Positions 4,034-5,798 of a DNA stretch of 64,000 nt are shown piece by piece; positions within the stretch are counted from its first letter, which is position 1, and each line of letters opens with the position of its first letter. The stretch covers positions 1-64,000 of the forward strand of contig JAEUSB010000108.1 of the NCBI GenBank assembly GCA_016788865.1, given 5' to 3'. This stretch comes from Leptospirales bacterium (GTDB taxonomy: Bacteria; Spirochaetota; Leptospiria; Leptospirales; Leptonemataceae). The notes under the pieces are model-generated. The model was not told where the DNA came from and ran no database searches. It saw only the letters and a list, made by a program, of their open reading frames with translations. Made by a program: the position numbers and the translations under genes.

Positions 4034-4441
4034 TCAATGCACAACAATCAAACCGCGCATGCCGGCCTGACGATGGCCGGGCACTGAGCAATAATACTCA
4101 AAGCGTCCGGCTTTCAATTGTACCACCGTTGATGCCATTTCCCCCGGTGCGGCAGCCAGGTGAATTTGGTCTCCGATTTCCGCATTCGCAGAGTGCGTCT
4201 GATGGTGGTTATGTTCGTGAAGGTCGGGCGCACCTATCGGATCGAGATTCCTGACGATCAAATCGTGAACTGCGCCCCCGTTGTTCTGGAGGATCAGTTT
4301 GACAGTTTTGCTGGAATCAACATGGATTTCTGCCGGCGCAAAGGACATTTCCTTTGCGATAACTGTAACTGTGGATTCAGGTAGATTTGTGGGTGAGCAG
4401 CTAATTCCCATTACCAATAGGACAATAACCAGTTTCTTCAT
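4034..4441 (-). CDS. Cupredoxin-like copper-binding lipoprotein
   Basis: A 135-residue protein with a lipoprotein signal peptide (lipobox MGISC, Cys15) and a single cupredoxin fold. The four type-1 copper ligands can be placed at His59 (in AVHDL), Cys118, His123 (CSVPGH) and Met128 (RQAGM). A His-rich insertion at about residues 74-84 (HEHNHHQTH) may be an additional metal-loading site. The protein is probably anchored in a membrane facing the periplasm, where it could carry electrons or buffer copper. It is divergent from the CorE-like sigma gene and has an ECF-type promoter identical in form to that of the DUF4396 gene. A ribosome-binding site (AGGAG) lies seven bases before the ATG. Confidence 0.85.
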   Translation of the reverse strand: MKKLVIVLLVMGISCSPTNLPESTVTVIAKEMSFAPAEIHVDSSKTVKLILQNNGGAVHDLIVRNLDPIGAPDLHEHNHHQTHSANAEIGDQIHLAAAPGEMASTVVQLKAGRFEYYCSVPGHRQAGMRGLIVVH

Positions 4442-4476
4442 ATTTCAACTCCTGGAACCAGTCGGTTCCATGCTGG

Positions 4477-4503
4477 GAAACGATCCCCGTGGCTTCCGGT
4501 TAC
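4477..4503 (-). promoter_or_regulatory. ECF-type promoter of the cupredoxin gene (GTAACC-N15-CGTTTC)
   Basis: Read on the minus strand, GTAACC at 4503-4498 is followed after 15 bases by CGTTTC at 4482-4477. The same two hexamers with the same 15-base spacing precede the DUF4396 gene at 5156-5182. The expected transcript start would lie about 30 bases before the cupredoxin ATG, leaving room for its ribosome-binding site. The site is located 50-76 bases from the start of the divergent sigma gene. Motif identity is seen; control by the adjacent sigma factor is inferred. Confidence 0.65.
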
Positions 4504-4552
4504 ACTTATTTCGCGATTGCACTCTAAATTTCGTATCGCAATACTAGGATTC

Positions 4553-5113
4553 ATGGACCAACTCAGCGAAAATCCGGATGCCGGTGAAGCCCTGAGCGTG
4601 ACATCACTCTTAAACCATAGATCTCGGCTGCTGGCATTTGTGCGACGTCGGGTCTCTGATCCAGATTTGGCGGAGGATATCTTTCAGGATTCCTTGTTGC
4701 GTGGTCTGCGCCAGGCCCCGACCTTTGAAGACGAATCTTCGCTTCTGGCGTGGTTTCATGCGGTACTTCGCAACGCCGTCATCGATACTTACCGTAGAAA
4801 TGCCGCCGACGCCCGCAAAACTCAGTCAGCAACCGCTATGCTTGGTGACATCCTCGATCCCAACGATGCGGCAGAGTTGTGTCAGTGCTTCCTGGAATTG
4901 CTTCCGGCTTTACGTCCTGAGAATCGGGATCTCATTGAGAAGATGGAACTGGGCGACGAGCAACCGGAAACGGCCGCACGGCGCCTTGGAATCAAACGCG
5001 AGACGTTGAAAGTCCGCCGTTTCCGCGCTCGACAGGAACTGAGACAGAGACTGGAAGAATCCTGTCGTACCTGCGCCAAACACGGATGTCTCGACTGTAC
5101 CTGCTCCAAATAG
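4553..5113 (+). CDS. CorE-like (ECF44-type) metal-sensing RNA polymerase sigma factor
   Basis: A 186-residue ECF sigma factor. Region 2 spans about residues 20-85 (DPDLAEDIFQDSLLRGL, then WFHAVLRNAVIDTYRR) and region 4 about 112-165 (PETAARRLGIKRETLKVRR). Two features are unusual for ECF factors: a Cys-x-Cys pair in the linker between the two regions (Cys110 and Cys112) and a cysteine-rich C-terminal tail with Cys171, 174, 179, 182 and 184. This combination is the hallmark, as I recall the family, of CorE-like factors, in which the cysteines sense copper or other soft metals directly and no anti-sigma factor is needed; none is encoded nearby. The ATG at 4553 follows an AGGA; upstream in-frame codons add nothing conserved. 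The neighbours, a cupredoxin and a His-rich DUF4396 protein, support a metal response. Confidence 0.85.
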   Translation: MDQLSENPDAGEALSVTSLLNHRSRLLAFVRRRVSDPDLAEDIFQDSLLRGLRQAPTFEDESSLLAWFHAVLRNAVIDTYRRNAADARKTQSATAMLGDILDPNDAAELCQCFLELLPALRPENRDLIEKMELGDEQPETAARRLGIKRETLKVRRFRARQELRQRLEESCRTCAKHGCLDCTCSK

Positions 5114-5154
5114 CCAGTCTCGCTGAGTCCATGAGGAGCCCCAAAAAAATTCTC

Positions 5155-5182
5155 GGTAACCTGCCGAGCTTACTTGCGTTTC
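5155..5182 (+). promoter_or_regulatory. ECF-type promoter of the DUF4396 gene (GTAACC-N15-CGTTTC)
   Basis: GGTAACC at 5155-5161 is followed by CGTTTC at 5177-5182, with 15 bases between GTAACC and CGTTTC. It matches the minus-strand promoter at 4503-4477 in both hexamers and spacing. A strong ribosome-binding site (AAGGAGG, 5192-5198) and the ATG at 5205 follow. The most economical reading is that the sigma factor encoded just upstream recognises both sites. Confidence 0.65.
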
Positions 5183-5204
5183 AGTTTCTATAAGGAGGCT
5201 TGTT

Positions 5205-5798
5205 ATGCAGACGCTAACTCGCGCACATCAATCATCAGGAATAGAAAAAGAGGAGCAGCCATCGACTGAACATGACCACACTTTATGCGTCACCGGGGAT
5301 ACACACGATGGATCCGGGATGCATCAGGGACACGATCACCATGGTCATTCACATGATAACCGCTCTCACAAGCAGACCGGCTCAAATTGGAAACTCGCAA
5401 CAATGGCCACACTTCACTGCTTGCTGGGTTGTGGAATTGGCGAAATCGTTGGAGTCATCGTTGGGACTGCCCTCGGGCTTGGAATGTGGGAAACTATGGC
5501 ACTTGCGATAGCCCTGGGTTTTGTTTTTGGTTTCGCCCTCGGTGTCATCCCGCTCGTAAGGGCCGGTTACGGAATGCGCCGGGCGTTTCAAGTGATTCTG
5601 GTTTCAGAAGGACTCAGTATTCTCGTGATGGAAGCTGCAGAAGCATTAACGCAGATTTTTGTTCCGGGCGTGATGCAAGCGGGACTGGCAGATGGCCTTT
5701 TCTGGGCCGGCATGCTACTGGCTCTCATCGCGGGATTCGTAGCGGCGTTTCCGGTGAATCTAATTCTGATTGGTCGGGGCATCAGACACGCTCACTGA
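5205..5798 (+). CDS. DUF4396 membrane protein with His-rich N-terminus
   Basis: A 197-residue protein. Residues 1-62 are hydrophilic and His-rich (for example HQGHDHHGHSHDNRSHK at about 40-56), which looks like a metal-binding tail. Residues 66-195 form about four membrane segments matching DUF4396, beginning with the conserved LHCLLGCGIGE segment and including glycine-rich helices and the PVNLILIGRGI end. The biochemical role of DUF4396 is not established. The His tail, the CorE-like sigma gene immediately upstream and the shared promoter suggest metal binding or export. AAGGAGG six bases before the ATG fixes the start. Confidence 0.8.
   Translation: MQTLTRAHQSSGIEKEEQPSTEHDHTLCVTGDTHDGSGMHQGHDHHGHSHDNRSHKQTGSNWKLATMATLHCLLGCGIGEIVGVIVGTALGLGMWETMALAIALGFVFGFALGVIPLVRAGYGMRRAFQVILVSEGLSILVMEAAEALTQIFVPGVMQAGLADGLFWAGMLLALIAGFVAAFPVNLILIGRGIRHAH

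Follow-up and report, generated by a model that had tools for sequence, protein, structure and literature searches.

The sigma factor group formerly known as ECF44 is called ECF238 in the current nomenclature. The described systems most comparable with the locus reported here are the metal-responsive factors CorE and CorE2 of M. xanthus. CorE carries tail cysteines at positions 181, 184, 189, 192, 194 and 206 (PMC3107203), and its published promoter geometry sets an AAC and a G 16–18 nt apart; a review notes that the new classification scheme leaves CorE itself unclassified (PMC8999054). CorE2, a Cd/Zn factor with the same CxC linker and a cysteine-rich tail (PMC8999054, PMC9023288), owes its metal specificity to an additional cysteine placed directly after the second tail cysteine (PMC9023288). 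For the membrane protein family DUF4396 (PF14342), the literature searched yielded no function, and one paper mentions it merely as the neighbour of a heavy-metal cluster with mobile elements (PMC7760498).

We assessed how a three-gene locus of a Leptospirales bacterium compares with these systems. The locus lies in a 64-kb stretch of DNA (the window, meaning the whole stretch analysed), and its features are as follows.

4034–4441, minus strand: cupredoxin, probable lipoprotein (PF00127, 46.5 bits against a cut-off of 21.2)
4477–4503, minus strand: predicted cupredoxin promoter, GTAACC (4503–4498), N15, CGTTTC (4482–4477), from a motif search, with an orthologous site at the cupredoxin gene of L014/L035
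4553–5113, plus strand: CorE-like ECF sigma factor, 186 aa (PF04542 and PF08281 above cut-off; 41% identity to M. xanthus CorE)
4880–4888, plus strand: CQC (C110, C112) in the sigma2–sigma4 linker, read from the sequence, both cysteines invariant in 61 relatives
5063–5104, plus strand: cysteine-rich tail CRTCAKHGCLDCTC (C171, C174, C179, C182, C184), spaced as CorE C181/184/189/192/194
5156–5182, plus strand: predicted DUF4396 promoter, GTAACC (5156–5161), N15, CGTTTC (5177–5182), from a motif search, with the same motif at five other sigma-adjacent DUF4396 genes
5192–5198, plus strand: ribosome-binding site AAGGAGG of DUF4396, read from the sequence
5205–5798, plus strand: DUF4396 protein, 197 aa (PF14342, 122.5 bits against 27)

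It is highly probable that the three genes act together as a copper-stress unit under the control of a CorE-like, self-sensing ECF sigma factor. A preliminary description had picked out the same arrangement; its observation is confirmed, and its interpretation as a metal-response unit largely holds. The cupredoxin, sigma and DUF4396 genes were recovered by profile matches at the positions it gave, the CxC pair and five-cysteine tail it ascribed to the sigma factor are present, and so is the extra His cluster of the cupredoxin (HEHNHHQTH). The His-rich tail it assigned to DUF4396 was misplaced: the His-rich part is an N-terminal extension (approximately residues 20–55), and the C terminus ends RHAH. 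The neighbours of the sigma gene are the cupredoxin, DUF4396, an M23 peptidase and a short-chain dehydrogenase, so that no anti-sigma gene adjoins it, as had been proposed. Neither the sigma factor nor DUF4396 was found in the two same-genus genomes searched, in which the genes flanking the unit are arranged differently.

The sigma factor consists of sigma2 (PF04542, residues 22–84) and sigma4 (PF08281, residues 111–163) domains only, and is 41% identical over 172 residues to the protein at L094, which is evidently M. xanthus CorE (its first tail cysteine is residue 181 counted from the first Met, and a sixth cysteine falls at the spacing of 206). The tail pattern is CxxC-x4-CxxCxC. The four invariant CorE tail cysteines (181, 184, 192 and 194) correspond at equal spacing to C171, C174, C182 and C184, and C179 is the counterpart of CorE Cys189, while C206 has no counterpart because the tail stops two residues past its last cysteine. 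In the alignment of 61 relatives all seven cysteines (C110, C112, C171, C174, C179, C182 and C184) are invariant, of which C110, C112, C171 and C174 provide independent evidence, given that C179, C182 and C184 belonged to the search pattern. The factor thus carries the hallmarks described for CorE/ECF44-type factors (PMC3107203, PMC8999054), an assignment judged by the cysteine signature only, and it shares with CorE the two-domain build, the CxC linker, the absence of an anti-sigma gene and a neighbourhood of copper genes, including a P-type ATPase and a multicopper oxidase in relatives. It differs from CorE in lying in the other half of the sigma tree with a different sigma4 helix, and in having DUF4396 among its predicted targets. 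The AlphaFold model has low confidence in the linker (residues 89–106) and tail (176–186), where it cannot decide whether the CxC pair contacts the tail. The best NCBIfam match, SigZ (TIGR02959), was rejected at 88.5 bits against a curated cut-off of 168.65; this match leaves the cysteine tail outside.

The cupredoxin is supported by two profiles (PF00127, E 5e-12; PF13473, E 1e-8) and retains all four type-1 copper ligands, H, C, H and M (VHD...YYCSVPGH...AGM). Upstream of it and of DUF4396, the preliminary description had recognized a shared motif, GTAACC-N15-CGTTTC, which does occur at both sites and nowhere else in the window (two copies, compared with a mean of 0.03 in shuffled sequences, 0 of 100 of which reached two). 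From the end of the -10-like box it is 36 nt to the ATG of the cupredoxin gene (4441) and 23 nt to that of DUF4396, whose copy of the motif is without the T normally found ahead of GTAACC. Across the host genome, a pattern search for GTAACC-N14-16-CGTYT showed no enrichment (11 matches compared with 34 for the reversed control), and most other matches sit inside genes or before unrelated genes. Given this lack of genome-wide enrichment, the motif by itself does not reveal the full regulon, and the argument is built on where it lies and on its conservation in other genomes. One additional host site is plausible, the only such among the extra matches: a GTAACC-N16-CGTTTC (G000:C22:30529-30502; L020 13530-13503, minus strand) lies approximately 40 nt upstream of a gene for a small secreted His/Cys-rich protein, which is followed by genes for an outer-membrane efflux protein, a P-type ATPase, and CusB-like and CusA/CzcA-family proteins. 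The sigma factor may have this Cus-like operon as a third target, in which case the two-gene regulon originally proposed would be too small.

To place the motif among related loci, we searched genome_contigs, a collection in which each of 84,980 species is represented by one genome, using a five-sequence sigma alignment, chosen over one including distant Leptospirales and alphaproteobacterial sigma factors that was too diverse for a genome scan, and kept the best 80 loci. Thirty of these share the sigma4 helix type of the window (NNLKVRRHRA-like) and are referred to as the close clade; the other 50, CorE included, make up the distant clade. Of the 30 close-clade loci, 23 have GTAACC-N14/15-CGTY no further than 1 kb from the sigma gene, compared with 2 of the 50 distant loci; for 1000 letter permutations of the motif, the number of close-clade loci averaged 0.47 and never exceeded 5 of the 30. 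Nearly all sites have a spacing of 14–15. An enumeration of six-plus-four-letter box pairs that presupposed no motif, performed on the flanks of 25 de-duplicated loci (near-identical pairs removed), returned TGTAAC/GTAACC...CGTC as the top pair (17 of 25 loci), and the extended consensus is TGTAACC-N14/15-CGTCTA. This geometry agrees with the published AAC...G spacing of CorE, albeit that GTAACC-N14/15-CGTY itself was not found near CorE, and the enumeration, when run on the distant CorE clade, gave GC-rich noise only and hence no motif. The seven close-clade loci whose sigma gene has no motif inside this 1-kb range include two from spirochaetes (L041 and L051), in the latter of which the motif precedes a copper ATPase 3.7 kb from the sigma gene. 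Five loci carry the motif before the sigma gene itself (L054, L055, L056 and L062, plus L069, which is outside the close clade).

We argue that the motif is the sigma factor's own promoter, since it tracks the sigma subclade and precedes the sigma gene in these five loci. Direct use of the promoter by the sigma factor is strongly supported by these sequence comparisons, by which the factor is a CorE-like member of a subclade with its own predicted promoter code. Given that the motif is short and that its pattern in the host genome is no commoner than the reversed control, it might instead belong to another regulator or sigma factor, with its proximity to the sigma gene being a by-product of copper gene clustering. 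We regard this as highly improbable: the difference between clades (23 of 30 compared with 2 of 50), the sites before sigma genes and the CorE-like ECF promoter geometry all argue against it, as does the absence of the motif from DUF4396/multicopper oxidase loci that have no sigma gene. Many of the related loci come from metagenome assemblies, and two pairs of near-identical sigma genes (L036/L039 and L054/L055) are in assemblies labelled with different phyla, which suggests recent transfer or binning error.

The motif is also conserved at orthologous genes. The nearest relative, a Spirochaetaceae assembly (G003, L014/L035), has two divergently oriented copies (GTAACC-N15-CGTTT), one serving a His-rich cupredoxin gene and the other a CopZ-CopA operon. 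Across the close clade the gene behind the motif encodes a P1B ATPase (L035, L036, L039, L042, L044, L046, L050, L051, L061 and L065), DUF4396 (L038, L043, L059, L060 and L063) or a YHS protein (L045, L048, L049 and L052), and on Manganitrophus plasmids two tandem copies lie between the sigma gene and a copper ATPase. The four YHS loci are from Bacteroidota, where the protein is small and CGTCAT is a frequent -10 box. The motif-driven P1B ATPases have CPH or CPC wherever the site is readable, six of them CPH, and all those scored exceed the cut-off of the copper-ATPase model. The common theme of the motif-driven genes is copper export.

Copper is accordingly the likely metal sensed by the unit. 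The preliminary description had allowed copper or related metals, including cadmium and zinc; copper is favoured because the conserved targets are copper genes, and cadmium and zinc are less supported. A unit of the same kind that senses another metal (zinc or cadmium, as in CorE2, or silver or mercury) is conceivable insofar as small changes in the tail switch the metal, as CorE2 shows (PMC9023288), soft metals share thiol sites, and CPC-type ATPases alone do not distinguish copper from zinc or cadmium; in some Streptomyces, mercury and arsenic genes also occur in the vicinity of DUF4396. We consider such a unit unlikely in view of the CorE spacing of the tail, in which Ala175 occupies the place of the CorE2 specificity residue (Cys174 of CorE2), the CPH sites and copper-model scores of the motif-driven ATPases, and neighbours that include cupredoxins, CopZ and multicopper oxidases.

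The DUF4396 protein of the window is a full-length family match (PF14342, E 2e-35, profile positions 1–140 of 141), here with a His-rich N terminus and a predicted CorE-type promoter. Its AlphaFold model consists of four long, predicted membrane helices (residues 53–89, 94–119, 124–152 and 164–194), in which the alignment shows C72-x3-C76 and M142-E143 to be conserved; these residues are candidate ligands. Both termini and the loop between helices 2 and 3 are flanked by positively charged residues (Arg and Lys), so that by the positive-inside rule both ends are probably cytoplasmic. The CopB/CopA P1B copper ATPases of sister loci occupy the same position, next to the sigma gene and behind the same promoter, and likewise have His-rich N termini; unlike them, DUF4396 has no ATPase domain and only the four modelled helices. 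All five DUF4396 genes in the best 80 loci (the window copy not counted) directly adjoin the sigma gene behind the motif, and in the five sister genomes the sigma-adjacent gene is the sole DUF4396, in a family whose cut-off was passed in 3 of 120 genomes searched. Adjacency of DUF4396 requires at least five changes on the sigma tree, indicating that the link arose, or survived losses elsewhere, repeatedly.

As a hold-out, 301 genomes of the phylum of L059 (Chloroflexota) were sampled without reference to the sigma factor. Among the 18 Chloroflexota DUF4396 loci fetched, none had the sigma gene or the motif, and a multicopper oxidase adjoins DUF4396 in eight. The DUF4396 beside the oxidase is a longer form (L176, L179, L180, L181 and L184–L187). 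In a spirochaete relative (G023, L023/L194 244-918, minus strand) an N-terminal HMA domain is fused to DUF4396, with a CusA-like pump gene approximately 1 kb away, and copper-related genes lie within 5 kb of DUF4396 on five of six annotated plasmids.

It might be objected that the sigma factor and cupredoxin form a copper unit to which DUF4396 belongs only as a passenger, its own role being a general one in the membrane or in stress. Three loci (L178, L182 and L183) and one plasmid have no recognized copper gene near DUF4396, a Foldseek search of the model against the PDB gave no match at E < 0.5, and in the single paper that mentions the family it merely flanks a heavy-metal cluster (PMC7760498). 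A passenger role nevertheless appears improbable, considering that DUF4396 is found repeatedly in the promoter-proximal target slot of a CorE-like sigma factor, that it bears His- or Met-rich extensions or a fused HMA domain, and that multicopper oxidases adjoin it in the eight Chloroflexota loci. The metal role that had been suggested for DUF4396 can thus be narrowed to a copper-handling hypothesis along four lines (shared promoter, copper ATPase slot, multicopper oxidase coupling and heavy-metal-domain fusion), which gives a family with no assigned function a specific and testable role. More tentatively, and with somewhat less than even confidence, DUF4396 proteins may be membrane copper transporters, or copper-transfer proteins, of a new family, in which cytoplasmic His-rich, Met-rich or HMA domains would feed the Cys-x3-Cys site of a four-helix bundle. 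They could then take the place of the P1B copper ATPase as the principal product switched on by a widespread subclade of CorE-like sigma factors that uses a promoter code of its own, TGTAACC-N14/15-CGTCTA.

For the copper-stress unit as a whole, we envisage that copper entering the cytoplasm would load the CxC/tail site of the sigma factor, which, by analogy with CorE, would then become competent without an anti-sigma factor and bring RNA polymerase to both GTAACC-N15-CGTTTC promoters. The divergently encoded cupredoxin, at the surface or in the periplasm, would bind copper outside the cytoplasm, while the cytoplasmic His-rich N terminus of DUF4396 may collect copper and pass it into or across the inner membrane, DUF4396 putatively filling the slot held by the P1B copper ATPase in sister loci. 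The unit adds a spirochaete to the bacteria with CorE-type sensing, and its promoter signature is found again in distant bacteria, ahead of genes for copper pumps and for DUF4396. For the CorE-like subclade, with records labelled with approximately 10 bacterial phyla, this provides a sharp promoter signature, making regulons predictable from sequence.

Divergent CorE-like sigma factors were also observed in three genomes from another family of the same class (G037, G032 and G045; L011–L013, L018 and L019), and the window motif was not seen near them. In G032 the sigma gene follows outer-membrane efflux and multicopper oxidase genes, and in G045 similar genes are present, with a CusA-like pump and a P-type ATPase nearby.
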